Part shown: piece after piece, positions 2,824 to 29,071 of the stretch
Layout of the letters: every line of letters begins with the position of its first letter
Numbering within the stretch: position 1 is the first letter of the stretch
Assembly: GCA_903944345.1 (NCBI GenBank)
Contig: CAJARJ010000018.1
Coordinates: 184,581-229,352 of the forward strand
From: Candidatus Omnitrophota bacterium
Lineage (GTDB): Bacteria; Omnitrophota; Gorgyraeia; Zapsychrales; Fredricksoniimonadaceae
DNA: 44,772 nt
Direction of reading: 5' to 3'
Notes under the pieces: model-generated
The model's database searches: none
What the model saw: the letters and a program-made list of their open reading frames with translations, nothing else
Told to the model about the DNA's origin: nothing
Made by a program: the position numbers and the translations under genes

Positions 2824-2843
2824 TTGTCATGCCCCGCACGATA

Positions 2844-3347: not shown

Positions 3348-4266
3348 ACATTACCCCGCCGATAAGACCAATAATAATTACAAAAAGAAAACCGATCAGG
3401 CTCAGGCTGACCGCAATCCCCTGCTCCATCCCTACCTTGCCCAGCAGATAAACCCAGCCGAATTCACGAAAACCGAGTCCGCCGATAGAAGGCAGAAAAG
3501 AAACCGCCGCAACAATCGGAGTAAAGACCAAAAAAGACATCGGATGCGCCTGTTGATGCAGGGCCAAGGCGATAAGATAATACATATACGCACTCAGCAC
3601 CTGGATACCGCACGAATAAAGCACGCAGCCCAAAGCCGTTCTTTTGCGACCACGCATCAAAAGCACATCGGCATGCATGTCCATCAGAGCTTTATGGGCA
3701 CGCGGCCATTTCAGAAAAACCCGGCAAAAGAAACTGTAAACCACAGAATTAAACAACATTCCCCCGATTGCAAGGGACAACAATGTCAACACAGCGATAG
3801 GCACAATGACCGAGGGAGCATCGATAATCTCGCTGCCAAAACAATACGCCACCAGCGCAACGATCACCAATCCGCCAAACCCGCTCAGACGATCCAGAAC
3901 CACCGAAGCATATACCTTTGGCTTTTGCCCGGCGCCGCGGGACAATCCATAGGCCTTCACAAGGTCCCCGCCAATGGATGTCGGCAGAAACAGATTCGAA
4001 AACAACCCGATAAAAAAGAACCTGGTCACCTGACTTAACGGAGCCTGAAAACTGAGCGCACGCATAAACAACACCCAGCGCACCAGAACCATGAACTGCA
4101 ACAAAAGATGCAGCAAAAACGCCGCCACCAGAAGAAAAATATCAGCCTGACGCACTGCAGCCCAGGTGTCCGGCCAGTTAACCATCGAGAACAACCAGAC
4201 AAGAAGAAGGGCACTTACAACCACCCTCCCGGCAAAAGACAAGAAATCTTTCATTTTCGCGGTCAT
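3274..4266 (-). CDS. Flippase-like integral membrane protein (LPG synthase TM / UPF0104 family)
   Basis: This 330-residue polytopic membrane protein has about eight hydrophobic segments. It has features of the lysylphosphatidylglycerol-synthase transmembrane (UPF0104) family: an early FMRALSF, then NLFLPTSIGGDLVKAYGLSR, VVLDRLSGFGGL, and late SFLPSIGGLGFREFGWVYL. Stand-alone members lack the soluble aminoacyltransferase domain and are thought to move lipids or glycolipids across the inner membrane; the substrate cannot be read here. It starts with an ATGA overlap on lipA. The last 25 codons, after the final membrane helix, run out of frame into the following nuclease gene. Confidence 0.82.
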   Translation of the reverse strand: MTAKMKDFLSFAGRVVVSALLLVWLFSMVNWPDTWAAVRQADIFLLVAAFLLHLLLQFMVLVRWVLFMRALSFQAPLSQVTRFFFIGLFSNLFLPTSIGGDLVKAYGLSRGAGQKPKVYASVVLDRLSGFGGLVIVALVAYCFGSEIIDAPSVIVPIAVLTLLSLAIGGMLFNSVVYSFFCRVFLKWPRAHKALMDMHADVLLMRGRKRTALGCVLYSCGIQVLSAYMYYLIALALHQQAHPMSFLVFTPIVAAVSFLPSIGGLGFREFGWVYLLGKVGMEQGIAVSLSLIGFLFVIIIGLIGGVMYVTSFSDRRVQCDPSHADACRADA

Positions 4267-5180
4267 GCTTTGATCCCTTCTTGACAGCTTCTGTAACTTT
4301 CTTCCGCCAGGTAAGAACTCCTGACCAGCGGCCCGCAGGTCATCGCGCGAAATCCTCTCTTTAACCCTTCCTGACGATAAACTTCAAACATATCCGGAGA
4401 AACAAACCTCGCCACCGGTACATGCCTTTGAATGTCCCCGGGCGAAAGATATTGCCCGACAGTCAACATATCACATCCAGCCGATTTTAATTCATCAAAA
4501 GCCGAAAAGATTTCTTCATCCGTCTCGCCCATTCCGGCCATAATCCCGGACTTGATTACAGTCTGCGGAGCCAGGCACCGGGCAAGAGATAAAACCTGAA
4601 GCGAGCGCTCATGATCCGCCCGTGAACGAACCGTGACAGACAGGCGACGAACAGTTTCAATATTATGTCCGATAACATGCACACCGGATTCAGCCACAAC
4701 CTTGAGGCATTCCCTGCGAGCGGAAAAATCAGGAATCAAAACCTCGACAATAACGTGTGGACATAAAGAACGGATATTCCCAACCACCCGGGCAAAGTGA
4801 TTGGCCCCCTCATCGGGCAAATCGTCTCTTGTCACCGAAGTGATCACCACATAACGAAGACCAAGCTGTTTGACGGCACGAGCCACCTGAACCGGCTCGT
4901 TTTGATCCGGAGGGAGTAAAGGCCCATTGCTAGAAACAGCACAGAAACGGCAGGAACGGGTACACGTATTTCCAAGAATCATGAAGGTGGCATGCCCTTT
5001 CTCCCAACATTGGCCGAGATTCGGGCAATGCGCCCCGGTACAGACTGTCCGCAGCCCGGTGTCACGTAGAAGGGTGCGCATCCTGACAAGCGCTGCCGGA
5101 TCCGGCAACTCCTGGCGAAACCATACCGGCAAAGAACGCCCTCCGGAAAGAAAGGCGGATTTCAGGCGGGAGTTTTCCAC
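4263..5180 (-). CDS. lipA: Lipoyl synthase
   Basis: This radical SAM enzyme inserts two sulfurs into protein-bound octanoyl groups to form lipoyl cofactors. Over 305 residues it shows the auxiliary-cluster cysteines CTGAHCPNLGQCW (C47, C52, C58) and the radical SAM motif CTRSCRFC (C73, C77, C80). It also has the C-terminal RSSY that supplies the serine ligand of the auxiliary cluster. The start is GTG at 5180 with AGGGAC upstream, overlapping the end of def by 19 bases. No lipB or lipoate-dependent dehydrogenase gene is in the window. Confidence 0.95.
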   Translation of the reverse strand: MENSRLKSAFLSGGRSLPVWFRQELPDPAALVRMRTLLRDTGLRTVCTGAHCPNLGQCWEKGHATFMILGNTCTRSCRFCAVSSNGPLLPPDQNEPVQVARAVKQLGLRYVVITSVTRDDLPDEGANHFARVVGNIRSLCPHVIVEVLIPDFSARRECLKVVAESGVHVIGHNIETVRRLSVTVRSRADHERSLQVLSLARCLAPQTVIKSGIMAGMGETDEEIFSAFDELKSAGCDMLTVGQYLSPGDIQRHVPVARFVSPDMFEVYRQEGLKRGFRAMTCGPLVRSSYLAEESYRSCQEGIKA

Positions 5181-5683
5181 ATGTCCCTGCTTAACGCTTC
5201 CAGACGGGCCAGCTGCGGCTGAAACTTCTCCCGCTCGGCGTCCGTCGCGTAATCAATCAGCAACCTGGCAAACAGATGATCGGATTCGTGCTGAAAGATC
5301 CTGGCCAGCAATCCGCTCAAAACCCGCTCGACACGCCGGCCATTACCATCAAGATAACGAACCCTGATGACGGAAGGTCGTTTGATGTTAATCCTGATCT
5401 TGGGCAAACTCAGGCACCCCTCCTCCATAACAGCCTGTTCAGTAGAAGCCTCAACAATCTCGGGGTTAATGACCACAAAAGGCCCATCGCCGGCATCCGC
5501 CACAAAAATCTGCCGCTCGACCCCGACCTGGGGCGCAGCCAGTCCCGCTCCTTCGAACTCGTACATGGCCCGGATCATTTCCTGAATAAAGAAACGTTCC
5601 GAAGGCCCAACCGAATCAACGGGGCTGGCGCATTGTCTCAGCACGGGGTCACCGTAATATCTAAGCTTTAACGCGGTTGGCAT
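5162..5683 (-). CDS. def: Peptide deformylase
   Basis: This enzyme removes the N-formyl group from nascent proteins using a metal held by one Cys and two His. The three family motifs are present: GAGLAAPQ, EGCLS (metal Cys) and QHESDHL (the HExxH metal and catalytic site, with Ser where Ile is more usual). The protein is about 173 residues, normal for the family. The ATG at 5683 is preferred, but a TTG two codons upstream (5689) is possible; neither has a clear SD. The gene overlaps the 3' end of panD by 23 bases, so coupled translation is likely. Confidence 0.92.
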   Translation of the reverse strand: MPTALKLRYYGDPVLRQCASPVDSVGPSERFFIQEMIRAMYEFEGAGLAAPQVGVERQIFVADAGDGPFVVINPEIVEASTEQAVMEEGCLSLPKIRINIKRPSVIRVRYLDGNGRRVERVLSGLLARIFQHESDHLFARLLIDYATDAEREKFQPQLARLEALSRDMWKTPA

Positions 5684-6011
5684 CGTCAAGATGAACTGTT
5701 TGTATGGTCATGCCGCGTGCTTCGTCCGGTGTCATCTGGGCGTAGCTGACAATGATCAGGCGATCCCCCACATACCCCTGTCGGGCAGCCGGTCCATTAA
5801 GACAAATCTGTCCGGACCCGGGCTTGCCGGCAATCACGTATGTTTCCAGACGGGATCCATTGTTAATATTAAATATCTCGACCTTCTCGCCTGGCAAAAG
5901 CCCGGCCGCTTTTATAATATCGGCATCAATCGTAATGCTGCCTTCATAATAAAGCTCTGCCTGGGTAACCCGGGCATGCGAAATTTTAGATTTACATAAA
6001 GTAATCAGCAT
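5661..6011 (-). CDS. panD: Aspartate 1-decarboxylase (pyruvoyl enzyme) proenzyme
   Basis: The enzyme makes beta-alanine for pantothenate and coenzyme A synthesis. The 116-residue protein from the ATG at 6011 (GGAG five bases upstream) contains the self-processing site YYEGS, with Gly24-Ser25 at the same position as in E. coli PanD. Cleavage there generates the N-terminal pyruvoyl group on the alpha chain. K9 and the later YAQM and GDRLIIVSY segments agree with the family. The longer frame to 6098 runs back into the thioredoxin gene and is not needed. It follows trxA by 10 bases and overlaps def. Confidence 0.93.
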   Translation of the reverse strand: MLITLCKSKISHARVTQAELYYEGSITIDADIIKAAGLLPGEKVEIFNINNGSRLETYVIAGKPGSGQICLNGPAARQGYVGDRLIIVSYAQMTPDEARGMTIQTVHLDDANRVKA

Positions 6012-6021
6012 GAGTCTCCGT

Positions 6022-6345
6022 TCACATATGAGCCTGGATCTTTTCGAGAATCTTTGGCCTGGGCAAAACCCCGACCATCTGATCAACGGGCTTGCCATTC
6101 TTGAAAATAAACAATGTCGGAATCGACATCACGTTAAACTGAGCCGCCAGATCCTGTGCCTCGTCTACGTTAATTTTGCAAACCTTGGCTCGCCCTTGCA
6201 ATTCGACTGCCAGATCTTCAACAATCGGCATAAGCATCTTGCACGGACCGCACCATTCTGCCCAGAAGTCCACCAGCACAGGAACCCCCGCCTTGAGCAC
6301 TTCCTGATCAAAATTCATCTCATTAACCGCAATAGCTGCTCCCAT
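6022..6345 (-). CDS. trxA: Thioredoxin
   Basis: The 107-residue thioredoxin has the redox motif WCGPC after VLVDFWAE, the buried Asp in VDFWAEWC and the cis-proline loop MSIPTLFIF. It is a general cytoplasmic disulfide reductant. The ATG at 6345 is chosen because of a near-perfect SD, AAGGAGG, seven bases upstream. The frame continues open to 6492 but that part crosses a good promoter (6385-6413) and is not family-like. It is the first gene of the long minus-strand run that ends with the mla genes. Confidence 0.95.
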   Translation of the reverse strand: MGAAIAVNEMNFDQEVLKAGVPVLVDFWAEWCGPCKMLMPIVEDLAVELQGRAKVCKINVDEAQDLAAQFNVMSIPTLFIFKNGKPVDQMVGVLPRPKILEKIQAHM

Positions 6346-6384
6346 AACGCCTCCTTGTATCGTATCCCTCATATAAGTCTTGTT

Positions 6385-6413
6385 ATTATAGTCACCGTCT
6401 GTTTCCACCGCAA
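6385..6413 (-). promoter_or_regulatory. Sigma-70-type promoter for the trxA-panD-def-lipA-mla run
   Basis: On the minus strand TTGCGG (6408-6413) and a perfect TATAAT (6385-6390) are separated by exactly 17 bases. They lie 40 bases upstream of the trxA start codon. Later genes of the run overlap or nearly abut, so this may drive all of them. Confidence 0.75.
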
Positions 6414-6561
6414 GGAATTTTAGCCCAATACTTCCCTTCGGCACGCACTGTCCCGAAGAAAAAAAACGGAGCTGCCAACACAAAAAATTCATGTGCTATA
6501 CTTGACACGGGAGCGTCGGACTAAAGAACGCTAACAGTCTCTGAACCATGAGGAGGCGATC

Positions 6562-7767
6562 ATGACCCCCAAGCCCGTCAAGATTTTCGTCCTCGACACC
6601 AATGTTATCCTGCACGACAGTTCCTGCCTTCACCACTTTAAACACCATGATGTTGTGCTTCCAATCTGCGTTCTGGAAGAACTCGACAAATTCAAAAAAG
6701 GCAACGAAACCGTCAATTTTCATGCCCGGCATTTTCTTAAAGAGATTGACAAGATCACTTCCGACAAACTTTTTAACGGCGGGCTGCCCATCGCCAAGAA
6801 CAAAGGCTTGCTGATCATCAAGCTGGACAAGCACTTCCATCCCGATCTGAAGCCACATTTTAGTCAGGACAAGATTGACCACATGATCCTTAACACAGCC
6901 TACTGCCTGGCGCAAGAATACCCTGATCGGGAAGTGACTCTAGTCACCAAGGATGTCAATCTGCGCATGAAAGCCAAAGCTGTGCACATGATCGCCGAAG
7001 ACTATACCACCGATCACGTCAAGGACATTTCTACCATATACAAAGGTTATCGCTTCGAGGAGAACGTGTCCCGGGAACTAATGGATCGTCTATGCCACGA
7101 ACCTGCGGGCATCCCGGTCAAAAGCTTCAAAACCCGCAGTAAATTCCTGCCCAATGAATTCATTGTGGCCCGCAACAAAGACATGTCCGCTTTGGGATCT
7201 GTTGATCCGGATGATATGACGATCAAACACATCACCAAAATCAACGCCTCCGGCATCAAACCGCGTAATGTTGAGCAGATGTTTGCCCTGCACGCACTTA
7301 TGAACGAAAAGATCCGGTTGGTCACCGTATCCGGCAAAGCGGGCACCGGAAAAACCCTGTTGGCGCTGGCCGCAGCTCTGGAACAGCGCAACAATTACAA
7401 ACAGATATTTCTCTCCCGTCCGATTGTGGCTCTGTCCAACAAGGATCTGGGATATCTTCCGGGAGGCGTAGACGAAAAAGTTGGCCCATACATGCAGCCG
7501 CTTTACGACAATCTGGGAGTCATTCAGGATCGGCTGATTGATCCTGGTGAACGCCGCGGCCGCAAATTCCAGAAAATGCTTGATGACGAAAAACTGGTTA
7601 TCGCTCCGCTAGCCTACATCCGCGGACGCAGCCTGGTAGATACCTACTTTATTGTGGATGAAGCCCAGAACCTGACCCCGCACGAGATCAAAACCATCAT
7701 TACCCGTGCCGGAGAAAATACAAAAATGGTGTTTGCCGGCGACATTTTCCAGATCGACCATCCTTAA
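6562..7767 (+). CDS. PhoH-family PIN plus ATPase protein, truncated by an in-frame stop
   Basis: This is a YlaK/PhoH2-type protein: an N-terminal PIN nuclease domain (FVLDTNVILHD, then VLEELDKF and VTKDVNLRMKA) is followed by a PhoH helicase-like ATPase domain. That domain has Walker A SGKAGTGKT and Walker B TYFIVDEAQNL. Relatives act in RNA unwinding or cleavage. The start at 6562 has a strong GAGGAGG SD. The frame reaches TAA at 7765-7767, immediately after GDIFQIDHP. The same frame then continues for 42 family-like codons to a second TAA at 7894, so the TAA sits where the family normally has Tyr (GDPxQIDxPYLD). It is either a recent nonsense mutation, a read error or a readthrough site. 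Confidence 0.9.
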   Translation: MTPKPVKIFVLDTNVILHDSSCLHHFKHHDVVLPICVLEELDKFKKGNETVNFHARHFLKEIDKITSDKLFNGGLPIAKNKGLLIIKLDKHFHPDLKPHFSQDKIDHMILNTAYCLAQEYPDREVTLVTKDVNLRMKAKAVHMIAEDYTTDHVKDISTIYKGYRFEENVSRELMDRLCHEPAGIPVKSFKTRSKFLPNEFIVARNKDMSALGSVDPDDMTIKHITKINASGIKPRNVEQMFALHALMNEKIRLVTVSGKAGTGKTLLALAAALEQRNNYKQIFLSRPIVALSNKDLGYLPGGVDEKVGPYMQPLYDNLGVIQDRLIDPGERRGRKFQKMLDDEKLVIAPLAYIRGRSLVDTYFIVDEAQNLTPHEIKTIITRAGENTKMVFAGDIFQIDHP

Positions 7768-17057: not shown

Positions 17058-18107
17058 CTATCCTGCAGGAATTTGCTGTGTCAAACAATGGCAAGTCCCC
17101 AGCCCCACAATAATATCTGCCGCCCTGACCGGGACTATCCGACGCCCTTTGAAAAGCTTTTCCAGAATACGCAAGGCATCCGCGTCCTGGGGACAATCAA
17201 AAACCGGAACCAGCACAATCCCATTGGCAATATAAAAATTCGCATAACTGGCCGGTAAACGCTCGTCCTTGCGATAATACATGGGACGCGGCATCGGCAG
17301 CCGCACAATCCGGAAAGGCTTTCCGTCAGTATCGGTAAACCCTTTCAGGAGACGAATGTTTTTTTCACAGATTGCGTGATTGACATCCGCCTCGTCCTTT
17401 TCTTCAACAGTCACAATAGTACGCGGATCGGTAAACCGGGCGATATCATCAATATGCCCATCCGTGTCGTCCCCGGCAATCCCGTCTTTAAGCCATAATA
17501 TTTTCCGAACCCCAAATGCTGCCTTCAGCAAAGCTTCTATCTGTTTCTTACCAAGCTGGGGATTACGATTTTCGTTAAGCAGGCAACTTTCCGTGGTCAA
17601 CAACACTCCCCGCCCGTTCACATCAATGGATCCGCCTTCCAGAACCCAGGGAAAATCAAAACGCTCCAAACCAAGAAACCCGGCCATCTTGCGTGCGATA
17701 CGATTGTCTTTCGCGGAAGGATATTTCCCTCCCCAGGCATTAAATATCCAGTTCGTTGCCGCCAACTGTCCGGTTTTGTCGTTACACACAACAACGCACC
17801 CATGATCACGACACCAGGCATCATTGGTCGCAAAACGATGAAAAAACACATTCTTTTTGACCTTGCGCCTGGCCAGCTTGGCCGACAAGTCGTCTTCCAT
17901 GAGCTGGTCATTAACATTAATGTGCACTTCTTCGACCTGAGCCAGGCAGGCCACCATATCAGCAAAAGATTCCTGGGCACCTTTCAAGGCAGTGAAAAAG
18001 CTTTTGGGATTATGCGGATAAGACAACCATGTCCCACGATGGGGCTCCCACTCGGCTGGCATGCGATAACCACGGACGGAAAGAGACCTCTGCGTACTAC
18101 TCCTCAT
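17058..18107 (-). CDS. aguA: Agmatine deiminase
   Basis: The enzyme hydrolyses agmatine to N-carbamoylputrescine and ammonia. The 349-residue protein is a guanidine-modifying enzyme with MPAEWEPHRGTWLSYPHN near the N-terminus. Active-site stretches are NDAWCRDHG, VLEGGSID and GDDTDGHIDDIARF, and the catalytic Cys341 lies in LGTCHCLTQQ. The more usual family form is GGNIHCITQQ, so the loop before the catalytic Cys differs slightly. The ATG at 18107 overlaps the end of aguB by 11 bases. Together they convert agmatine to putrescine. Confidence 0.95.
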   Translation of the reverse strand: MRSSTQRSLSVRGYRMPAEWEPHRGTWLSYPHNPKSFFTALKGAQESFADMVACLAQVEEVHINVNDQLMEDDLSAKLARRKVKKNVFFHRFATNDAWCRDHGCVVVCNDKTGQLAATNWIFNAWGGKYPSAKDNRIARKMAGFLGLERFDFPWVLEGGSIDVNGRGVLLTTESCLLNENRNPQLGKKQIEALLKAAFGVRKILWLKDGIAGDDTDGHIDDIARFTDPRTIVTVEEKDEADVNHAICEKNIRLLKGFTDTDGKPFRIVRLPMPRPMYYRKDERLPASYANFYIANGIVLVPVFDCPQDADALRILEKLFKGRRIVPVRAADIIVGLGTCHCLTQQIPAG

Positions 18108-18993
18108 CGTTGAACCTCTTGGTTATATCCGCATAACTGTCAGTCCGTCTGTCTCGCAAAAATGGCCATTGCACCCGCTTGACCGGAATGGTATCCAGAT
18201 CAACCGGTACAATCAGAACTTCCTGCGTATCCCGGGACGCCCGCCCCATAACCGTGCCATAGGGATCAGCCACAAAACTTTGCCCCCAAAATTCTATCCC
18301 TTTATCCGGACATTCCGGATGAGGTTCAAATCCAACCCGGTTAACCGCTGCAACAAAACAACCATTGGCAATCGCATGCGAACGCTGTATCGTTTCCCAG
18401 GAGGCGTGCTGACGTTCCCCATACTCCTGCTTGTCCTCAGGCAGCCAGCCAATCGCCGTGGGATAGAAAATAATCTGTGCCCCCATAAGCGCTGTCAGGC
18501 GAGCAGCTTCCGGGTACCACTGATCCCAGCAAACCAGCACTCCAATATCGGCATATTTTGTTTTAAAAACCTTATAGCCCAGATCACCCGGAGCGAAATA
18601 AAACTTCTCCTGAAACTGCGGATCATCCGGAATGTGCATCTTGCGATACTTCCCAAGATATTTGCCGTCCGCGTCAATTACTGCCGCCGTATTATGATAA
18701 ACACCCTCCGCCCTTTTCTCAAAGAGTGATGCGACAATCACCACTTTGTGCTTCCTAGCCAAGACCGATAAGGCCTTGACCGCCGCAGACTTTTCAATCA
18801 CCGGCTCGGCAAGAGCGAACATTTCGTAATCTTCCTGCTGACAGAAATAATGACTCTTGAACAATTCCTGAGTCGCTATAATCCGCGCCCCTTTACGGGC
18901 GGCAGCGGCAATAAGCCGGGCAACTTTGGCCGTGTTATCAGCTACGTCTTTAGAGCAGGCATGTTGAATAAGGGCAATCTTGATCGTGTTCAC
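18097..18993 (-). CDS. aguB: N-carbamoylputrescine amidase
   Basis: This nitrilase-superfamily enzyme releases putrescine from N-carbamoylputrescine. The 298-residue protein has the Glu-Lys-Cys triad: Glu in ATQELFKSHYFC, Lys in YRKMHIPDDP and Cys in VLVCWDQWYPEAAR. The segment SHYFCQQEDY and the late FWGQSFVADPYGT are typical of the plant and bacterial AguB group. The start is GTG at 18993 with a perfect AGGAGG SD. With aguA and the pyruvoyl arginine decarboxylase it completes arginine to putrescine. Confidence 0.95.
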   Translation of the reverse strand: MNTIKIALIQHACSKDVADNTAKVARLIAAAARKGARIIATQELFKSHYFCQQEDYEMFALAEPVIEKSAAVKALSVLARKHKVVIVASLFEKRAEGVYHNTAAVIDADGKYLGKYRKMHIPDDPQFQEKFYFAPGDLGYKVFKTKYADIGVLVCWDQWYPEAARLTALMGAQIIFYPTAIGWLPEDKQEYGERQHASWETIQRSHAIANGCFVAAVNRVGFEPHPECPDKGIEFWGQSFVADPYGTVMGRASRDTQEVLIVPVDLDTIPVKRVQWPFLRDRRTDSYADITKRFNDEE

Positions 18994-19176: not shown

Positions 19177-19269
19177 TGTTCGAAAAGGCAAACTACTTGA
19201 AAGAGTAGGACGCAAAGCCGTGAGCCTAACCCCTTGCAAAAGGAGTATGGTTGTCTGGTTGCCGTGACA
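19177..19269 (+). ncRNA. Cyclic-di-GMP riboswitch, GEMM-I class
   Basis: The leader matches the GEMM-I aptamer in order. First comes GGCAAAC, then a six-pair hairpin CTACTT-GAAA-GAGTAG with a GNRA tetraloop, and then the invariant GACGCAAAGCC. The second hairpin region CCTAACCCCTTGCAAAAGG follows and the closing strand is GGTTGCC. P1 can form between TGTTCG (19177-19182) and CGTGACA (19263-19269). By alignment to the Vibrio Vc2 aptamer, the base before CAAAC is G, which fits c-di-GMP rather than cGAMP; that numbering was done by eye. The regulated gene is the small secreted protein at 19333. Confidence 0.9.
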
Positions 19270-19296
19270 GAATCTAATCTGTTGCGTAATACGTCT

Positions 19297-19328
19297 CCCC
19301 TCTTTCAGTAGCCCACAACAAAGGGGGG
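19297..19328 (+). promoter_or_regulatory. SD-sequestering stem (riboswitch expression platform)
   Basis: CCCCTCTTT (19297-19305) can pair over nine positions (one U-G) with AAAGGGGGG (19320-19328), which contains the ribosome binding site of the next gene. Upstream, ACAGA/TCTGT (19267-19271, 19278-19282) competes with the 3' strand of P1. This suggests translational control by the ligand; its direction, on or off, cannot be decided by eye. Confidence 0.65.
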
Positions 19329-19332
19329 CACG

Positions 19333-19605
19333 ATGAAAACACTGTCCGGATTTATTGTTCTTGGATTTATACTCTGCAGTTGCTGCGCTTTTGCCCTGGC
19401 CGGATCAACTACAACCCAATCCTTTACTATAACCGTAAGAATACCTCCTGCGGCATCATTACCGATCTTTCCGCAGAACTCAGACATTTCAGCATCCGGA
19501 TATCAGAAAGTCACTCAAAAAAATAACCCTGCCATTATCACAGAAGAACAACGAATTCTTCCGGATATGCGCAAGGCTGTTTTAAAATCAATTTCGATTC
19601 TCTGA
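19333..19605 (+). CDS. Small secreted protein under c-di-GMP riboswitch control
   Basis: The 90-residue protein has a signal peptide (MKTLSGFIVLGFILCSCCAF, cleavage near ALA-GS). The mature part of about 65 residues opens STTTQSFTITVRIPPAA, an alternating strand resembling the edge strand of secreted fimbrial subunits. It has no Cys after the signal. The rest is polar and unrecognised. The SD lies in the stem at 19297-19328. Its stop codon abuts that of the usher-like gene on the other strand. A role as minor subunit, donor strand or regulator of the fibre encoded opposite is inference. Confidence 0.75.
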   Translation: MKTLSGFIVLGFILCSCCAFALAGSTTTQSFTITVRIPPAASLPIFPQNSDISASGYQKVTQKNNPAIITEEQRILPDMRKAVLKSISIL

Positions 19606-22600
19606 TCAGTCCTCGACCAGCGAGGCCGGGTTAGGCTTGACCGGAACATGGAACACGTAGGTTGAGCCTTCCTGGAGATCGATCTCGGTCTTCACCTTAA
19701 TCAGCGGAACAAACTCGATCGGAACTGAGCTCATATCGAGCGAAATAGTATGCTTGCCTCTGGACGCCCCCCTGAAGAAATAGGTACCACTGTGATCGGA
19801 AGCCACAACGGTCTTCTCATCCAGACGAAGCTTGACTCCCCGCAAATACGTGTCTCCTGAATCCGGTTTGCCATTACCGTTTACGTCAACATAAACCGTT
19901 CCGTAAACCCCGGCCTGACTGGAAAGACCAAAATCCACCCTGCGAACCCCGGCCTGCAAAGTACGAACTTTCTGGAAAGCCGGCGTAACAAAAATCGCGC
20001 CAGCAGGCAAGCTGGGAGTATGCGGAGCCACCGCCACTCGCCGCCCCTTGACAGAAACACGATAATAACCTCGGGCATCAGTCCGGGCCTCTTTTTCGCC
20101 AACCTTGACCACAACCCCCTCAATGCCCTCATCCCCATTAGAGAAAATCTTGTCTCCGTCACGATCCCGGTAAACATAACCGGCCACAAAACCCCAAGGA
20201 TCCCAAACAATATTTGTCCCCCAGGCCATACGCATCCCGAAGCGGACATCCAGATCATGATAAGAAGGATTATCCGAAATCTGCGCCAGCACATTGCGCA
20301 ATCTGCTGTCCATAAAGAAGTTGACGTCTTTTATAGGCGTATAGTTCAAAGCAAGCGAACCCGTTACGCTATCCTCTCCCGAAAGGTAGCTAAAATCTCC
20401 TTCGACATTTCTTTCATTGCGATAGGAAACCCCGGCCATGCCTCTAAGGTTATCGGTGAAATCCTTGTTATAAGATAAACCGGTAGTCATAACCGAAGGC
20501 TGATACCCGTCCTTGGTCAATACTTCTTCGACCCAGGAATATTCATAGTTCACATACCCCGAAAAATTCTGCAGGAAGGGGAGTTGTAAGCCGGTAAGCA
20601 GTGTATAGCGATCCGACTCAATCTGCGGAAAATATTCATATCGTGACAGCTGGGTTGTCCCTCCGGCAAATATCGCTCCGGTACGGCCTCCCAGAAAGGG
20701 AAAAAATCTGGTAACCCGCAGCCCCCCACCCCAAGCCTGGCGAGGAGACTCCTCACCCTGAAGATCAGTATACTGGCCCGAAAGATCAAACGCATACCGG
20801 CCATCTACAGGAACGTTAATCTGACCGCTGACATCGTAATTCAAAGCATGAGGAGAATAGGGGTTAGGCGCAAAATTATTCTGATATAGATTCAGATAGG
20901 TGCTGGCAAACGCCCCCCCCAGATCAGTGCCGGTGGTCCATATTCCTCCGGTTTCCCCCAGACCGGAGGGCGTCCCCAGAACCGAACTGTAATCCTTGTT
21001 AATATCCCTAAAACTCGCCGTCTGATAAACTGGACCATTGTTCCAGAGCAGGCTGGCTATTGCCGCCTTGTCTGCAGAATCGTCACGGGCCAGTTCGGCA
21101 TTAAGCATAGCCTTGTCAATCTGTTGCTGAACTTCAATAGAATAAACTTCCGCAGAAACACCTTCCGTACGGTCTTGTCCATAACCACGGGCATAATTCA
21201 AAGCATAGGAATGTTCCTTGCTAAGAGGGAACAGCACTGCCTGAAAAGTATCCGCTCCGGCATCTATAGTCGAAGACTGGCGGTCGGCCACATAAATTGT
21301 TGAAGCAAGCTGTCGGCCATGACTGGTCGAAAGAGCAAGCCCGTTATCAAAAAGCTTAACTTCTCCAACGACTCCACGCAAATGCGAAGATAAAGTTAAG
21401 GCAGAAAGATCACGATTATAATCGAACACCCGCAAATCCAGATCACTGGTCCAAGGCATCGGAATATCGCTGAGCCCCAGTGTATATGTGGGATAGTCAT
21501 TAATCGGCCTAAAGCCCGCGGCGGTGATAGAACCATCGGAAAGGCCGTAAGGTGTTTCTCCGGTAAAACTGAAAACCTGGGTGATATCATGCGACTGACG
21601 CCCCAGATGGGGCACATTATCCCCCCGATAGAAAGAAGAATTATCCAGACTATAAGACAAACGAAACGGAGCCGAGTGTTCCACCAGGGCATCTTCGGCC
21701 AGACGTCCGGCATCTTTCCCCTCAGGAAGCACGACCTGGACATAAACAGTGGTGCGTCCACGGTCATCCCAGATATGCAAAAACAAACTCCCCCACATCG
21801 GAGCATCAATGCGCAGCTGATCCAGTGAAGTCTTCTTTACGGAGACTATTCCTGGCTCGATTTCGAGAAATCTCTGAATATTACGCCCCTCTACCACAAC
21901 AGCCGCACCCAGCTCGAGCTTGAGGGTTGGCTTGGAAGGATTGGCCTGGATAATATCATCCAGAGAAACCACTTCAATAAATTTACGCTGCCCCGCCTTT
22001 GTGGACGATGAAGCATGAGGTGCTGCAACAGGAAGCGCACTGGCTGGTTTACGAACCTGAACCTCAACCGGAGACCGGACGGGTTCTGAAGCCGGAGCAG
22101 ACACGGGAAGAGCGGCAACCCTGCTTTGGACTCCAGTTAACTGATCCAGAGCCTCCGATACCGCGTTCATTCGGGGCGAAGATAGAACTGGATCCGGCTG
22201 TTCTATGATTTCTGCCTCCACCACCGGAGTACGCCTTGAGGCAGAAGCGTTCTGTAAACGCCCCTCGCGGCTACGGATAATCAAGTTTAAAAACTCCAGC
22301 GGCTCCTGATCGGCGCTATCCATCTGATGCGCCTGATAGAAATAAAGATACGCTGCATCCTCGTCGCCTTTGGCCAACGAATCCTTTCCTTGTGCCAGCA
22401 ACTGCTGATACTGCAAATCTCCCTGTCCTGAGTCAGACCGCTGCAAGGGCCGCCCGGCAGTATCGTATTGTTCTTGCAGACTCTCGAGATAGCGCGCCGG
22501 GGCCTCGGCATCCGGAAACAGGAACTTCGCCCGCTCGAAATAAAATTCGGCGGCATCCCGGTCCTGGTCACGCATAGCCTGGACGCCTTCTTCTATATAG

Positions 22601-22755
22601 TAGCGATAAAGACGGGTACGATTATCGGCAAAAGCCGGAAGAGAAAAAAGCAGAAAGAAAGCAAAAAGAACAATGACCGGAGAATGCCCGAGGAGAGTTC
22701 TTCTGCCTTGCCTGTACTGGTCAGAAAAAATCATCCTCAACATTCCTCCGATCAT
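19606..22755 (-). CDS. Usher-like outer-membrane protein with TPR, CpaC-N-like and SdrD-B-like domains
   Basis: This 1049-residue exported protein has a mosaic layout. A signal peptide ends near FADN (about 43). Two TPR-like helical pairs follow (about 48-95 and 115-160), then a Pro/Ala-rich linker. A domain at about 265-355 resembles the N-terminal domain of pilus secretins (CpaC): LKLELGAAVVVEGRNIQRFL, then EIEPGIVSV. A long beta-rich region (about 365-850) has barrel-type strands such as YTLGLSDIPMPWTSDLDLRV. Two C-terminal SdrD-B/Ig-like domains carry VYRDRDGDKIFSNGDEGIEG and VYVDVNGNGKPDSGDTYLRG. It is last in an operon with chaperone- and pilin-like genes, which suggests an usher that secretes fibre subunits. 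A GGAGG just inside the frame makes the ATG at 22734 a likely true start. Confidence 0.75.
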   Translation of the reverse strand: MIGGMLRMIFSDQYRQGRRTLLGHSPVIVLFAFFLLFSLPAFADNRTRLYRYYIEEGVQAMRDQDRDAAEFYFERAKFLFPDAEAPARYLESLQEQYDTAGRPLQRSDSGQGDLQYQQLLAQGKDSLAKGDEDAAYLYFYQAHQMDSADQEPLEFLNLIIRSREGRLQNASASRRTPVVEAEIIEQPDPVLSSPRMNAVSEALDQLTGVQSRVAALPVSAPASEPVRSPVEVQVRKPASALPVAAPHASSSTKAGQRKFIEVVSLDDIIQANPSKPTLKLELGAAVVVEGRNIQRFLEIEPGIVSVKKTSLDQLRIDAPMWGSLFLHIWDDRGRTTVYVQVVLPEGKDAGRLAEDALVEHSAPFRLSYSLDNSSFYRGDNVPHLGRQSHDITQVFSFTGETPYGLSDGSITAAGFRPINDYPTYTLGLSDIPMPWTSDLDLRVFDYNRDLSALTLSSHLRGVVGEVKLFDNGLALSTSHGRQLASTIYVADRQSSTIDAGADTFQAVLFPLSKEHSYALNYARGYGQDRTEGVSAEVYSIEVQQQIDKAMLNAELARDDSADKAAIASLLWNNGPVYQTASFRDINKDYSSVLGTPSGLGETGGIWTTGTDLGGAFASTYLNLYQNNFAPNPYSPHALNYDVSGQINVPVDGRYAFDLSGQYTDLQGEESPRQAWGGGLRVTRFFPFLGGRTGAIFAGGTTQLSRYEYFPQIESDRYTLLTGLQLPFLQNFSGYVNYEYSWVEEVLTKDGYQPSVMTTGLSYNKDFTDNLRGMAGVSYRNERNVEGDFSYLSGEDSVTGSLALNYTPIKDVNFFMDSRLRNVLAQISDNPSYHDLDVRFGMRMAWGTNIVWDPWGFVAGYVYRDRDGDKIFSNGDEGIEGVVVKVGEKEARTDARGYYRVSVKGRRVAVAPHTPSLPAGAIFVTPAFQKVRTLQAGVRRVDFGLSSQAGVYGTVYVDVNGNGKPDSGDTYLRGVKLRLDEKTVVASDHSGTYFFRGASRGKHTISLDMSSVPIEFVPLIKVKTEIDLQEGSTYVFHVPVKPNPASLVED

Positions 22756-22788
22756 TGTTTAAATCTTACATTATTGTAAAAAGATTAC

Positions 22789-23595
22789 TTATTGCAGATT
22801 CTCTATAGTCAAACCGTTTGCACCCTGGGTCAGGGATATCTCCTTAACCGCCACACTACCACTGCCCAAATCAACATTAAGCACCAGAGAATATGTTCCC
22901 GGTGCCAGCTCGGCAGGCAATGCAATCCGCCAGTTGCCGGTTGCCCCTGGAGCAACATACAAATTGGTCCCTTCGCCACGGTGTACCGTTAACCCCTGAG
23001 CATCCAAAAGATAGAAAGTCGTCTTGGGGATCAGGACTAAATCGGACTGATTGACAAAACTGCCCAGAACATCGTTCCCCTCAGCCTTGACGTCCTTAAT
23101 ATCAGCCACTCTGGGGGCATCCTTGGATTCCACAAAAAACAGACAACCCAGGCGTGTTACCAACGCGACTCCGGTTGAATCAATCATTGGAGTCGCTCGC
23201 TCAAAAAACAAAACTCCGTAATGACCACCCTTTATGTCCGCAGGCGCATTAACAGCATAATCGATCACCTGACTCCCGTTCGGAGGCAAAACAAACTCTT
23301 GAGGAGTAAAAGACACCCACTGGCTGGCTGAACCCGGCAGGATTCCCGCCGGCGAGAATTCCTTGTTGCCATCAAAAGGCGGAACATACCGAAAGTCCTC
23401 CCAATAGGCGCGGACGCCTACTTCCTCATCAGAAGTATTATGCAAAACCATTGACCCGCTGGAACGCTCCCCGCCGGCCACGGTCAGGGTGACCTTTCCT
23501 TCCTCAAGGAAGAACTGGGCCCTGACCGGTCCGGTAAGGAACATGAGCAGCAGCGCTATGGACAAACACACCTGTCTCATCATACGCACCCTCAT
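22789..23595 (-). CDS. Periplasmic chaperone-like Ig-fold protein of the fibre locus
   Basis: The 268-residue protein has a signal peptide (cleavage near VRA-QF). A two-domain beta-sandwich layout follows, like PapD-type chaperones and DUF916-type Ig proteins. Domain 1 begins KVTLTVAGGERSSGSMVLHN and includes EFVLPPNGSQVIDYAVNAPA. Domain 2 includes LGSFVNQSDLVLIPKTTFYL and ends with LAPGTYSLVLNVDLGSG. The conserved Arg/Lys anchor of classical chaperones cannot be placed confidently. An SD (AAAGGA) precedes the ATG at 23595. It lies 12 bases after the pilin-like gene and 33 bases before the usher-like gene. Confidence 0.7.
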   Translation of the reverse strand: MRVRMMRQVCLSIALLLMFLTGPVRAQFFLEEGKVTLTVAGGERSSGSMVLHNTSDEEVGVRAYWEDFRYVPPFDGNKEFSPAGILPGSASQWVSFTPQEFVLPPNGSQVIDYAVNAPADIKGGHYGVLFFERATPMIDSTGVALVTRLGCLFFVESKDAPRVADIKDVKAEGNDVLGSFVNQSDLVLIPKTTFYLLDAQGLTVHRGEGTNLYVAPGATGNWRIALPAELAPGTYSLVLNVDLGSGSVAVKEISLTQGANGLTIENLQ

Positions 23596-23607
23596 TGTCC
23601 TTTATTA

Positions 23608-24225
23608 TTAGGAAATTGTCGCGGTAACTTTGAACGTACCGGTATAATCTCCAGCCTTGTCAGACAAGTTGAAACCTTCAGCACCAGTAGGAAGACCAGT
23701 GAACGGAGCAATGTTGCCGCCCAGATAGATTTTAAGGGCTTTGCCAGCAAAAGCTCCAAGATTTTCATTTTCTGTCGCAACATTGTACAACAAAACCTTG
23801 TTCATGGTTGTAATGTCGCTCTCATCTGTAGGATTAGCCACCGTGAACTTGGTGAAATCCACATTGACCTTGTACCCCAAACCCTTACGAGTTGTGGCGC
23901 TGTTTGGGTTGCTGCTTTCGGTATAAGTGAACGCAACGTTCATACTTGTACCCTGTGATCCAGTCGGAGCAACCACAATGGCATAGTAATACTTAGCACG
24001 GTAATCGCCATAAGTGGCATTGTATTCCAACGCTAAGTCCAGATTTCCGGTGTGCAAAGACGCCGGATTGGCTCCTTCATGCTTGAGAACATACATCGAC
24101 GCACCTGCTGAAACCGGCACGTTCGCTGTGGCAATAAAAGAAAACGGATTGCTGTCGGCCAGCAACTGGGAGGTCAGTGACGCAACAAACAACCCCGTGA
24201 ATAATGCAATTCCTAATTTCTTCAT
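23608..24225 (-). CDS. Pilin-like secreted subunit
   Basis: The 205-residue protein has a signal peptide (MKKLGIALFTGLFVASLTSQ, cleavage near LLA-DS). A beta-rich, Cys-free mature part follows, with low charge and many Thr/Asn/Gly. It begins FSFIATANVPVSAGASMYVL and ends DKAGDYTGTFKVTATIS, an alternating final strand typical of fimbrial subunits. There is no type IV pilin N-terminus. Its place between tip-like and chaperone-like genes and its strong SD (GGGGGAG before the ATG at 24225) fit a major subunit. I do not recognise the family. Confidence 0.7.
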   Translation of the reverse strand: MKKLGIALFTGLFVASLTSQLLADSNPFSFIATANVPVSAGASMYVLKHEGANPASLHTGNLDLALEYNATYGDYRAKYYYAIVVAPTGSQGTSMNVAFTYTESSNPNSATTRKGLGYKVNVDFTKFTVANPTDESDITTMNKVLLYNVATENENLGAFAGKALKIYLGGNIAPFTGLPTGAEGFNLSDKAGDYTGTFKVTATIS

Positions 24226-24269
24226 ACTACTCCCCCTCTTATGATTATAAACTTATGACTTTGTTGATT

Positions 24270-25634
24270 TCAATTCTGATTCAAAGAAAACCTTATCGGT
24301 GCCGCGTACTGCCCTCCTTCCGCATACTGTTCCGGTTGCATTTGATAAATAACATTAAAAACAGCCGAATCGCCCTGAGCATTGGACGAAAAGACCGGAT
24401 ATTCTCCGTCTTCAACAGGAGTAAACTCACCTAACTTGCTTTTCCCGCGCTCCCCTGCAGGAATCTCAACCCTCATCTGAAAAGCGTCTTTGGGCAAAGG
24501 TTTACCTTTCTCATTAGTCATAAGATTCGGTACCGTTTGCATGACCTGATAAGGACGACGCAAATTGGTTCTGACCTTCACGGTAACCACCTGCTCACGG
24601 GAAGGCTGCCCGGGCACCAGATTGCCAAACTGCATGCCTTGAGCCGGAGGCGCCACCTCCATCGAAAAAACCGGCTGAATTTCACAATCAAGATCAATGT
24701 CCGCAGACTCTATATCGCCTGCAGTTTCGATTGTATACCGAAGACGCCCTTTATACTCGCCAGCATCAAGACCGGAAAGAGCCGAAGAATCAAGCAAAAG
24801 CCTGACAAAGACCTTGTCTTGTGATGATCGTCCCGAATAAACAAGCACCCGCCCCCGGGTCATGGCTTCGAATTCACGCTGCCGCATCCCCTGTCCACTG
24901 GCGGAATCCACACTAAAACGCAGAGCATCCGCAGGCATTTCCCGACCTATAACTCCCGCGGGAAGAATAACCGCCTCCTGATAAATCCGAACCTCATTGT
25001 CGGAATCGACTGAAAAATCAACTTCAACCTGATCTCTCAAGACATTTTCGGAATCTGTATCGCGCACCTCGACCCGGTTCTTGTTACGCGCGCCTGAAAC
25101 CTCAAATTTACGCTCTGAAGCTTTTTCAAGACTGACGGGTATGGTGACCTGAGCCTGCGAACCGTCTTCAAGACTGCGAACGGCAAGGAGCAGCTGACCG
25201 GAGTACACCCCACCAGGCCCGGGGACTTGAGGATCAAAGGAATAATTAAGGGCAAAGATATCCCCGGGACCATTTTGACCGGAGGAATATAAGAGCTGCT
25301 CGCCCATACTGATACGTTCTGGACTCTGAATATAAAGAGTACCCGCTGAATTGGAGCCGGGAACGGATACAACTTCCAAAGCACGGAAGTCGAGTGTCTC
25401 CCCTTTTTCATTGCGCATAGGTTCGACGAAACGCTGAAAAACCCGATACCGCTTACCGTCTGTTGAGCTGATACGAACCCGCAATTCCTTAAATTCAGAG
25501 GAATGACCAAACCCGGGGCGAAAGCGCAAATTGGTTCCTCCATCAGTAGGATTGACGCTGATTGAAAGCCCAGCATATGCCGATCCCGACAGAAAAGAAA
25601 TAAGAATGGATATAAGAAGAAGCCAAGCTTTCAT
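24270..25634 (-). CDS. Two-lobed exported protein, probable fibre tip or adhesin
   Basis: The 454-residue protein has a signal peptide (MKAWLLLISILISFLSGSAY, cleavage near AYA-GL) and a beta-rich mature part with no Cys except one in VDLDCEIQ. It contains an internal duplication. The first lobe (about 20-150) has YRVFQRFVEPMRNEKGETL and a later LLYSSGQNG. The last lobe (about 330-454) has YQVMQTVPNLMTNEKGKPL and PVFSSNAQG, in the same order. The middle region is different. Being first in the operon and larger than the pilin-like protein, it could be the tip subunit. It has a good promoter and SD (AAGGGA). Confidence 0.65.
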   Translation of the reverse strand: MKAWLLLISILISFLSGSAYAGLSISVNPTDGGTNLRFRPGFGHSSEFKELRVRISSTDGKRYRVFQRFVEPMRNEKGETLDFRALEVVSVPGSNSAGTLYIQSPERISMGEQLLYSSGQNGPGDIFALNYSFDPQVPGPGGVYSGQLLLAVRSLEDGSQAQVTIPVSLEKASERKFEVSGARNKNRVEVRDTDSENVLRDQVEVDFSVDSDNEVRIYQEAVILPAGVIGREMPADALRFSVDSASGQGMRQREFEAMTRGRVLVYSGRSSQDKVFVRLLLDSSALSGLDAGEYKGRLRYTIETAGDIESADIDLDCEIQPVFSMEVAPPAQGMQFGNLVPGQPSREQVVTVKVRTNLRRPYQVMQTVPNLMTNEKGKPLPKDAFQMRVEIPAGERGKSKLGEFTPVEDGEYPVFSSNAQGDSAVFNVIYQMQPEQYAEGGQYAAPIRFSLNQN

Positions 25635-27411: not shown

Positions 27412-27536
27412 TCCAACCTCGCGAATGGCTTCCCCGGCTTCTGGCACTCCTTCTCTGGCCCCTGATCATGGCCTCAGTGCTAATTTCATTTCTTATTGCC
27501 CGTATCTTCCGACTGGCCAGAAAAAAAACAGGTTAA
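27408..27536 (+). CDS. 42-residue single-pass membrane peptide
   Basis: An ATG overlaps the radical SAM stop (ATGA) and opens a 42-codon frame beginning [20 protein letters not shown]. It continues with a long hydrophobic helix ([14 protein letters not shown]) and a basic tail (RLARKKTG). The exact ATGA coupling and the clean membrane topology favour a real gene. The family is unknown. Its stop overlaps the end of the TamB-like gene on the opposite strand. Confidence 0.55.
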
Positions 27537-29071
27537 AACATCCGACGGTATTTAATCAGAATACTGTCTTCAGGGCGCACAGGCTCAGCTTCTGCAGCGG
27601 TTGAGAGGCTCTGACGCGTTTCGCGATCTGCTTTCACGGAAAAGAAGTTGTTAATTCTGTATTCTCCGCCGATCTTCTGCGATGACATCAGATTACCGGT
27701 CGCATCAACTGTATGCCGAAATTCGTATCTTGCATCCAGATGTCCTGTTACTTCTTTGGTAATCCCAAGCCCTTTCTGAGCCTTGTCCACATTCAGTGAA
27801 ATATCCTTGATCCCCAGACGCTGCGAAAGACGATACCCAATGCCGCCAAAGACAAAATAATCCATAAATTCGCCCGCGGCATCCAGAGAAAATTTTCTCT
27901 GCGTCAAGGATTTCTCCGTTCCACGCCAGCTGCGGTTGGTCACCAGCATAACCAGAAGCTGATCCTGCGCCAAACCATCCGCCGACTGCAGTCTGAGCTC
28001 TGGCGCATTCAGATTGCCTCTTAACCGGATATCGATGCGGGTATCTCCTACCTGAGACATGCCGGAAAGATCAAAAACCGGATTGGCTGGATCCCCTTCA
28101 AAAAGCAATGTGCCTGGTAACAATCGCACCTGCGCCGTCGCGGCTCCGGCAAGACTCCCGCCATCAACCCGAATCGTTCCGTAAAGCCGGGGATCTGCCG
28201 AGATGGCCGTTCTTAAATGAAGATCAACGGGCACATTTTCCAACCCGGCACCATCCCGAACCAGTTTTTCCAGGGTCAACTTACCGGAAACTTCAAACGA
28301 CGCCAACGGACCGTGAATATACAAATCAATATCACTCACCGTTCCGGATAAAGAACGCCAGGGAGCCCCCTCACCCAAAAACGAAATAATCCGCGAGGCC
28401 GGAAGCCAGCGAGAAAACAAGTTAATATCCAGAAGCCCGTCCCGGTACCCGCCGCTAATCAGAATCGATCCTGCAGATTCTGCCTCCACTCTCGCATTAA
28501 AAATATTAACACTCAACCCTTGCCCGGACCCGGCATCCATCGCAAAGCGAATTTCCTGGCCCCGCAATAATGCCTCGTCGAAGGACCGCAAAGCGCGTAC
28601 AAAACGCGCATTGAGCTCCGGCAGTTTTTGCCGATCCAGAAAATCCAGCGTCTCTTTCAGACCAATCTTTTGCGTTCCCAGTATCACTTCCCAACGGCCA
28701 GGTGTCCAGTGGCCTTTTAAAGACACCGCTGCCCGACTGACGGGTAAAACCAGCAATCCTTCCTCAAAAAGAACAAGCGCCCCCCCCTGAAAGGGGGACT
28801 GCACCCTGACAAGCCCAAGATGAATCACCGTTTTCCGTGGAAGCCGCCCGGCATCCTCCAGAATAACCCCGGCCCAGCGAAATCCGCGAAACAAACTGCC
28901 AACGGCCAATTCGGTCTTGAGCTCTCCGGTCTGCAGGAGAACCTCCAATACTCCCTGCACGAACCATCCTGAGCCCCGCGCGGTCAGAAAAATGTAGCCG
29001 CCAAAAGACGCAAGAAACAAGACAACGCAACACAACAAAAGGCAACTGCGTTTCCAAACTTTCATACACAT
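27533..29071 (-). CDS. TamB/AsmA-like inner-membrane-anchored protein
   Basis: The 512-residue protein has one N-terminal membrane anchor (LLLCCVVLFLASFGGYIFLT) and a long beta-rich periplasmic region. The C-terminal part has TamB (DUF490) features: VDGGSLAGAATAQVRLLPGT, IDIRLRGNLNAPELRLQSAD, then LAQDQLLVMLVTNRSW and DYFVFGGIGYRLSQRLGIKD. TamB-type proteins form a bridge for phospholipids or for outer-membrane protein insertion. It is shorter than E. coli TamB (about 1260 residues), as in many other phyla. The start may be the ATG at 29065. A TATAAT on the minus strand (29125-29130) could serve it. Confidence 0.78.
   Translation of the reverse strand: MCMKVWKRSCLLLCCVVLFLASFGGYIFLTARGSGWFVQGVLEVLLQTGELKTELAVGSLFRGFRWAGVILEDAGRLPRKTVIHLGLVRVQSPFQGGALVLFEEGLLVLPVSRAAVSLKGHWTPGRWEVILGTQKIGLKETLDFLDRQKLPELNARFVRALRSFDEALLRGQEIRFAMDAGSGQGLSVNIFNARVEAESAGSILISGGYRDGLLDINLFSRWLPASRIISFLGEGAPWRSLSGTVSDIDLYIHGPLASFEVSGKLTLEKLVRDGAGLENVPVDLHLRTAISADPRLYGTIRVDGGSLAGAATAQVRLLPGTLLFEGDPANPVFDLSGMSQVGDTRIDIRLRGNLNAPELRLQSADGLAQDQLLVMLVTNRSWRGTEKSLTQRKFSLDAAGEFMDYFVFGGIGYRLSQRLGIKDISLNVDKAQKGLGITKEVTGHLDARYEFRHTVDATGNLMSSQKIGGEYRINNFFSVKADRETRQSLSTAAEAEPVRPEDSILIKYRRMF

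Follow-up and report, generated by a model that had tools for sequence, protein, structure and literature searches.

Can a gene cluster in an Omnitrophota genome direct the assembly of chaperone-usher-type surface fibres, although no usher sequence family detects its outer-membrane component? We addressed this question in a window of 44,772 nucleotides (contig CAJARJ010000018.1 of assembly GCA_903944345.1, positions 184,581 to 229,352), where the initial annotation had proposed, from the sequence alone, an unusual chaperone-usher-like fibre locus with a mosaic usher at positions 19606-25634. All four open reading frames of the proposed operon are present in the expected order and sizes, separated by gaps of 44, 12, and 33 nt, and each product starts with a signal-peptide-like segment. 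The arrangement is far beyond chance, since homologues of the 1049-residue protein are found in 49 of 92 related genomes, and by our own count the order 454-pilin-chaperone-1049 is kept in 35 of 38 loci that are not cut by a contig end. Interestingly, the unit extends beyond these limits to 19177-19605, where a fifth gene, tail-to-tail with the usher gene, and a riboswitch lie, both absent from the initial annotation. The features of the extended locus are collected in the table.

Features of the Omnitrophota fibre locus, in coordinates of the window
Feature	Position	Strand	Length	Description
Tip-like protein (role inferred)	24270..25634	-	454 aa	First gene; exported; three homologous beta-sandwich-like domains; no N-terminal donor strand
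Pilin	23608..24225	-	205 aa	Signal peptide; donor strand F-x-V/A-x-A-x-V-P at residues 30-37; Ig-like body 41-205 ending in YTGTFKVTATIS
Periplasmic chaperone	22789..23595	-	268 aa	Two Ig-like domains; G1 donor motif V143-x-L145-x-T147-R148-L149-G150
Mosaic usher (predicted)	19606..22755	-	1049 aa	TPR helices 25-172; disordered linker 172-258; T2SS/T3SS pil_N-like beta domain 261-342; barrel of about 26 strands 365-846; two C-terminal SdrD_B-like beta domains 854-1041
Mini-protein	19333..19605	+	90 aa	Exported; only a pilin-type donor strand (F31-T-I33-T-V35-R-I37-P38), variable linker and conserved C-terminal beta-hairpin-like motif
c-di-GMP-I riboswitch aptamer (RF01051)	19177..19266	+		In the leader of the mini-gene
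Putative expression platform	19297..19332	+		CCCCTCTTT...AAAGGGGGG hairpin covering the Shine-Dalgarno of the mini-gene; CUCUUUC can also pair with aptamer P2 (inference from sequence and folding)

Searches based on sequence alone for usher, chaperone, or pilin families gave nothing decisive beyond SdrD_B, pil_N, TPR, and weak WxLIP/EcpB signals, and no family of ushers or PapD-type chaperones reached significance. The Pfam usher family PF00577 was not among the families listed for 38 members and was absent from 55 related genomes, while the E. coli control was positive. The domains proposed for the 1049-residue protein were nonetheless recovered: SdrD_B is significant (1.1e-9) and present in 38/38 members, the CpaC-type N-domain (PF13629) is weak in the window protein (0.22) but is found in 35/38 members (best 4.5e-9), and TPR families match up to 18/38 members (best 1.9e-5). 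No secretin domain was found among the listed matches. The 454-residue protein matched no Pfam family and, contrary to the two-lobed protein suggested initially, it is a triplication of one domain, with hhalign values of 99% for D1-D2 (score 111 against shuffles of at most 19), 99% for D1-D3, and 96% for D2-D3.

Structure prediction of the 1049-residue protein yielded a model with a pLDDT of 81.7, in which the barrel is mostly above 90. The 11 best PDB matches of this model with Foldseek are all FimD/PapC ushers (E down to 8e-20), and the alignment to FimD runs over residues 369-1040, the two C-terminal domains aligning with FimD up to residue 833. The barrel is somewhat larger than the 20 to 24 strands initially expected, and it has no plug insertion, the longest non-strand stretch inside it being about 15 residues. 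In VIA-align, no single family dominated the barrel, with the Mtr barrel (Z 16.9), FimD (16.7), and porins (about 16) being tied, and the usher assignment rests on the Foldseek ranking and on the C-terminal domains.

We next modeled the pilin and the chaperone in a single chain, from an alignment with nine read-through rows in which the stop codons between the two were read as glycine only to place both proteins together. The chaperone is predicted with high confidence (pLDDT about 98), and its best structural match is the WxLIP protein of Enterococcus faecium (Z 16.2 and 15.5), followed among pilus chaperones by CfaA (Z 14.1), then FimC (about 12-13), CsuC, PapD, and EcpB, the last being also the only sequence-profile match in the PDB (E 0.005). 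The hydrophobic character of G1 columns 143, 145, and 149 is kept in 94-100% of sequences, and R148 and G150 are invariant. In the same model the pilin body is well defined (pLDDT about 90) while its N-terminal donor segment is left disordered (pLDDT under 50) beside its own folded body and a folded chaperone, and thus the pilin does not look self-contained. The hydrophobic residues of this segment alternate strictly in 42 pilins (F-x-V-x-A-x-V-P). However, the G1 segment of the chaperone was not docked in the fused model (fused residues 350-357 unpaired, pTM 0.56), and donor-strand complementation therefore remains an inference.

The most surprising part of the locus is the small exported protein convergent with the usher, which carries only a pilin-type donor strand and no Ig body. 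Its mature part alone, excluding similarity between signal peptides, aligns in register with the pilin donor segment with an hhalign score of 23.4, against 9.1 +/- 1.3 (maximum 12.3) for shuffles. The alternating hydrophobics are conserved at 100% in four positions and are followed by an invariant Pro. A dN/dS of 0.12-0.29 in six pairs rejects the possibility that the frame is non-coding. The mini-gene is present in 41 of 42 usher-bearing relatives and in 0 of 42 others (Fisher p 5e-23, a value that ignores phylogenetic relatedness), although it is missing next to 4 of 39 usher genes. By contrast, TamB and the radical-SAM gene next door have no homologues in the other loci fetched.

The aptamer preceding the mini-gene matches RF01051 with 69.7 bits against a gathering score of 35 (E 9e-12). 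A riboswitch lies at the same place in 30 of the 39 loci with room for it, two of them below the gathering score, and there are only three in the whole genome. We consider it somewhat more likely than not that this is an OFF switch, with synthesis of the mini-protein shut down at high c-di-GMP. The covariation between the anti-aptamer element and P2 is only marginal (p 0.053), and the direction of the switch stays an inference. Scans for promoters and terminators were not clearly above shuffles and were not used.

Taken together, these results support the chaperone-usher-like interpretation of the initial annotation, and we favor with good confidence a divergent fibre system of Omnitrophota linked to a donor-strand protein under a c-di-GMP riboswitch. 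In the inferred mechanism, pilin subunits enter the periplasm with an incomplete Ig fold and are held by the chaperone through donation of its G1 strand. The mosaic usher would collect the complexes on its periplasmic side, its TPR and pil_N-like parts plausibly replacing the classical N-terminal and plug domains, let the N-terminal strand of each incoming pilin replace the chaperone strand in the previous subunit, and extrude the fibre through its barrel, led by the three-domain protein. As the mini-protein could fill the groove of the last subunit while offering no groove to the next, its most likely role is to terminate or cap the chain, and fibres would then grow longer when c-di-GMP is high. 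Our confidence does not extend to this termination step, which is tentative and slightly less likely than not. Equally tentative is the broader view that Omnitrophota control fibre growth with a subunit reduced to the strand that links subunits, capping the chain much as a chain-terminating nucleotide ends DNA synthesis; this would be a new kind of part in donor-strand systems and a new way for c-di-GMP to act on a chaperone-usher-type fibre.

Alternatively, the mini-protein could be a base anchor or release factor, its donor strand lying in the last pilin and its C-terminal hairpin being held by the usher or another envelope part, so that the fibre is attached or detached on a c-di-GMP cue. 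The C-terminal motif R-N-N-x-x-hydrophobic...T-I-V is indeed conserved separately from the donor strand, and PapH and FimI both terminate and anchor (PMC10673952). Yet no partner for this motif was identified, and we regard this role as unlikely, although termination and anchoring cannot be separated from sequence. Somewhat less likely still, the free donor strand could complete a subunit and start a fibre, as does the N-terminus of TapA for TasA filaments in Bacillus. TapA donates an N-terminal strand nearly identical in its first residues to that of TasA and triggers filament growth, and a strain secreting only TapA residues 44-57 still makes biofilm (PMC10151520). However, usher systems normally start with a tip subunit, for which the operon contains a donor-less candidate, and with an OFF switch such fibres would be made at low c-di-GMP, against the usual logic.

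It is doubtful that the locus is instead a separate secretion or surface-attachment complex, closer to WxL/WxLIP pairs, with a 205-residue surface protein that does not polymerise. This view is consistent with the structural match of the chaperone to WxLIP and with the WxLIP_PGBD family matching 18 of 35 members (best 1.5e-5), but it is disfavored by the usher match of the barrel protein, by the disordered donor segment with alternating hydrophobics directly after the pilin signal peptide, and by the tandem duplication of pilin genes in some loci. Finally, a primarily antisense action of the riboswitch-driven transcript on the usher mRNA is very unlikely, for although the two genes always face each other and end within about 20 nt or overlap in most loci, so that read-through would overlap the usher mRNA, the small frame is kept under purifying selection with a signal peptide and donor strand in every member, and in one locus a mini-like gene lies on the same strand as the pilins and chaperones.

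These findings extend usher-type fibre assembly to a phylum where a broad genome study found type IV and Tad pili and giant adhesins but does not mention ushers (PMC10066038), and where annotation by sequence family misses the system entirely. The usher without a plug domain tests which parts of an usher are essential, the chaperone links Gram-positive WxLIP proteins and pilus chaperones by fold, which bears on the origin of the pathway, and the mini-protein makes pilus length control testable with a short exported protein.

Compared to the classical FimC/FimD/FimA and PapD/PapC pili, the system shares the predicted usher fold including the C-terminal domains, a two-domain PapD-like chaperone, and a pilin with an N-terminal donor strand, but it differs in lacking a PF00577 or PapD sequence signal, in its TPR and pil_N-like N-terminus, in its barrel of about 26 strands rather than a 24-strand barrel with an inserted plug, and in the operon order tip-pilin-chaperone-usher, and no full-size terminator subunit was found. 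The resemblance to the alternative (CFA/I-ECP) class, suggested in the initial annotation from gene order and sizes, is partly borne out by the matches to CfaA and EcpB and, in the sequence alignment only, by a large residue at P0 of strand G1 (EcpB Ile117 aligns with column 149, large hydrophobic in 91%) and by the R-x-G after the donor motif. Membership in this class nevertheless fails, as TcfC and CooC_C domains are lacking and the carboxylate-anchoring Arg of these chaperones (EcpB Arg89, CfaA Arg90) is replaced by D/S/N/E/T in the aligned column 112, with Arg in 1 of 35. With respect to the Tad secretin CpaC, the pil_N domain is accompanied by a FimD-like barrel. The WxL/WxLIP pairs of Gram-positive bacteria (PDB 9i25, 9i1y) share the chaperone fold, whereas the Omnitrophota locus has an outer-membrane usher, donor-strand pilins, and a riboswitch-controlled mini-protein, and neither a WxL family among the Pfam matches of the pilins nor a W-x-L in the window pilin was found. 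The terminators PapH and FimI also carry a donor strand with a proposed role at the end of the chain, but they are full-size Ig subunits held by the chaperone, while the mini-protein has no Ig body, its own convergent transcript, and a riboswitch. In TapA/TasA filaments, a second protein likewise supplies a donor strand resembling that of the filament subunit, but in a Gram-positive setting with no usher, and TapA also has an Ig domain.

The locus lies in an Omnitrophota genome of 2.18 Mb that is 95.5% complete (hereafter G000), where four exported proteins of 454, 205, 268, and 1049 residues are encoded on the minus strand, separated by gaps of 44, 12, and 33 nt. Homologues of the 1049-residue protein occur in 49 of 92 relatives and, at E-values of 1e-20 or better, in 71 of 237 genomes sampled across the phylum, including other classes. 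Comparing 41 loci including the window, we found the order 454-residue protein, pilin(s), chaperone, and 1049-residue protein to be intact in 35 of the 38 loci that are not cut by a contig end, the exceptions being the loci numbered L021, L048, and L051. The neighboring genes (TamB, radical SAM, and the agmatine pathway) had no homologues in the loci of the other genomes, so the unit consists of the operon plus what lies just past its end.

Pfam searches of the 1049-residue protein family identified SdrD_B in 38 of 38 members, pil_N in 35, and TPR families in up to 18, but no usher model. The AlphaFold2 model computed from 38 sequences shows TPR helices (residues 25-172), a disordered linker (172-258), a beta domain (261-342), a barrel (365-846) with 26 strands by our count, and two C-terminal beta domains extending to residue 1041. 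The 11 best matches retrieved from the PDB with Foldseek are FimD and PapC, with E-values of 8e-20 at best. In a second alignment, FimD has a Z-score of about 16-17 and the alignment runs to model residue 1040; however, other barrels reach the same Z-score, so the assignment as an usher rests on the Foldseek ranking and on the C-terminal domains. No plug-sized insert exists in the barrel. PF00577 was not found in 55 relatives, while the E. coli control was positive. The TPR and pil_N parts may replace the classical N-terminal and plug domains, although this remains an inference.

The pilin and chaperone genes are in the same frame, with three TAA codons at the junction, so both proteins could be modeled as a single chain by reading TAA as glycine. 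The chaperone is predicted with pLDDT values of about 98. Its best structural matches are WxLIP of Enterococcus faecium (Z-scores of 16.2 and 15.5), followed by CfaA (14.1) and by FimC, CsuC, PapD, and EcpB (about 11.5-13). EcpB is also the only match in sequence-profile searches of the PDB, with an E-value of 0.005 across strands E1-G1. When compared to EcpB, the P0 position is a large hydrophobic residue in 91% of the sequences and R148 and G150 are invariant, but the carboxylate-anchoring Arg is replaced in 34 of 35 (the function of these residues being taken from PMC4654587). The pilin body is well predicted, while residues 20-38, which hold the donor strand, have pLDDT values below 50. 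In this model the chaperone segment 350-357 stayed unpaired, so complementation itself is not shown. Proteins of the chaperone family, WxLIP-like and in some cases with a C-terminal membrane anchor, were also found in two Patescibacteria loci and one locus of an uncultured bacterium (L094, L095, and L096), beside exported proteins ending in GTY...VNY or similar, which suggests a wider WxLIP-chaperone superfamily. In loci L047 and L048, an N-terminal glycoside hydrolase family 26 domain (Pfam E-values of 1.4e-8 and 3.2e-8) is fused to a C-terminal pilin with its own donor strand, apparently displaying an enzyme on the fibre. In addition, G000 itself carries a second pilin gene of the same family, directly followed by a gene for an exported protein without any Pfam match, possibly a large accessory fibre protein.

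The 454-residue protein consists of three copies of one domain (hhalign probabilities of 96-99%, with scores of 57-112 against at most 20 for shuffled sequences). It has no donor strand after its signal peptide, as expected for a most-distal subunit, and a role at the tip is inferred.

Interestingly, the pilin profile also hit a small ORF beyond the usher gene, a part of the locus that the initial annotation had missed. This mini-gene ends one base before the stop codon of the usher. The encoded mini-protein has a signal peptide, followed by the segment F-T-I-T-V-R-I-P, a variable linker, and a C-terminal motif. With the signal peptides excluded, the mini-protein and pilin profiles align residue for residue over 22 positions (score 23.4, compared to 9.1 +/- 1.3 and a maximum of 12.3 for shuffled sequences; E-value 0.0013). 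Four alternating positions are hydrophobic in 100% of 22 mini-proteins and in 98-100% of 42 pilins, in the same phase, and are followed by Pro (100% and 90%, respectively). The third position is mostly Ala in pilins but Val in mini-proteins. The dN/dS ratio is 0.12-0.29 in six pairs. The mini-gene lies on the strand opposite the usher in 34 of 39 loci with room, with a further one identified in locus L050, and it is found in 41 of 42 genomes with the usher and in 0 of 42 without (p = 5e-23, not corrected for phylogeny). In the expanded Omnitrophota cluster of locus L091, a mini-like gene is instead located between chaperone and pilin genes.

Coordinates of the features at the locus, in related loci, and elsewhere in the genome G000
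Sequence	Coordinates	Strand	Size	Feature
Window	19177-19266			c-di-GMP-I aptamer preceding the mini-gene
Window	19333-19605	+	90 aa	Mini-gene
Window	17058-18993			Agmatine deiminase-type (PAD_porph) and carbon-nitrogen hydrolase genes in tandem, an ordinary polyamine pathway pair
Window	27533-29071			Short TamB-like protein next to the fibre locus (Pfam 2.8e-17), not conserved near other copies of the operon
L047	991-2502		503 aa	Glycoside hydrolase family 26 domain fused to a pilin
L048	8400-9866		488 aa	Glycoside hydrolase family 26 domain fused to a pilin
L091	1-9001			Expanded cluster with three chaperones, five pilins, and a mini-like gene on the same strand
L106 (G000:C13)	6592-7221			Second pilin gene of G000
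L106 (G000:C13)	2817-6572		1251 aa	Exported protein directly following the second pilin gene
G000:C7	20829-20921			c-di-GMP-I riboswitch, target gene not clearly identified
G000:C3	22478-22587			c-di-GMP-I riboswitch, target gene not clearly identified

The aptamer preceding the mini-gene scores 69.7 bits. The same arrangement is observed in 27 other loci above the gathering score (in L016 with the sister model RF03167) and in L037 and L046 just below it. G000 has only three such aptamers in total. About half of the leaders, as read by eye, show a hairpin followed by a U-run before the mini-gene, while others show a hairpin over its Shine-Dalgarno. A conserved CUCUUUC element in this hairpin is, in nearly every leader, the best partner of aptamer stem P2, suggesting that a formed aptamer releases the hairpin and turns the gene off. 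However, the pairing energies with the own partner are only slightly better than with swapped ones (p = 0.053), so the direction of the switch is uncertain, with an OFF switch appearing somewhat more likely than the alternative.

The anatomy of the locus fits donor-strand exchange, in which chaperone-held pilins would be delivered to an outer-membrane usher and the N-terminal strand of each pilin would complete the previous one. We consider usher-type fibre assembly very likely, and it is likely that the mini-protein acts through its donor strand. We found no description of this system in literature searches combining Omnitrophota with ushers, or chaperone-usher systems with c-di-GMP riboswitches, although subscription papers and preprints were not covered, and within the same limits we found no precedent for the donor-strand mini-protein in chaperone-usher systems. 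A protein with the strand but no Ig body can complete the last subunit and offers no acceptor groove, so termination or capping is the simplest function, although this assignment remains tentative. An OFF switch would then mean more capping at low c-di-GMP and longer fibres at high c-di-GMP, which would be consistent with c-di-GMP being usually linked to attachment. By comparison, PapH and FimI end chains as full-size subunits without a usable acceptor (PMC10673952), while TapA shows that a donor strand supplied by a second protein can instead start a filament (PMC10151520).
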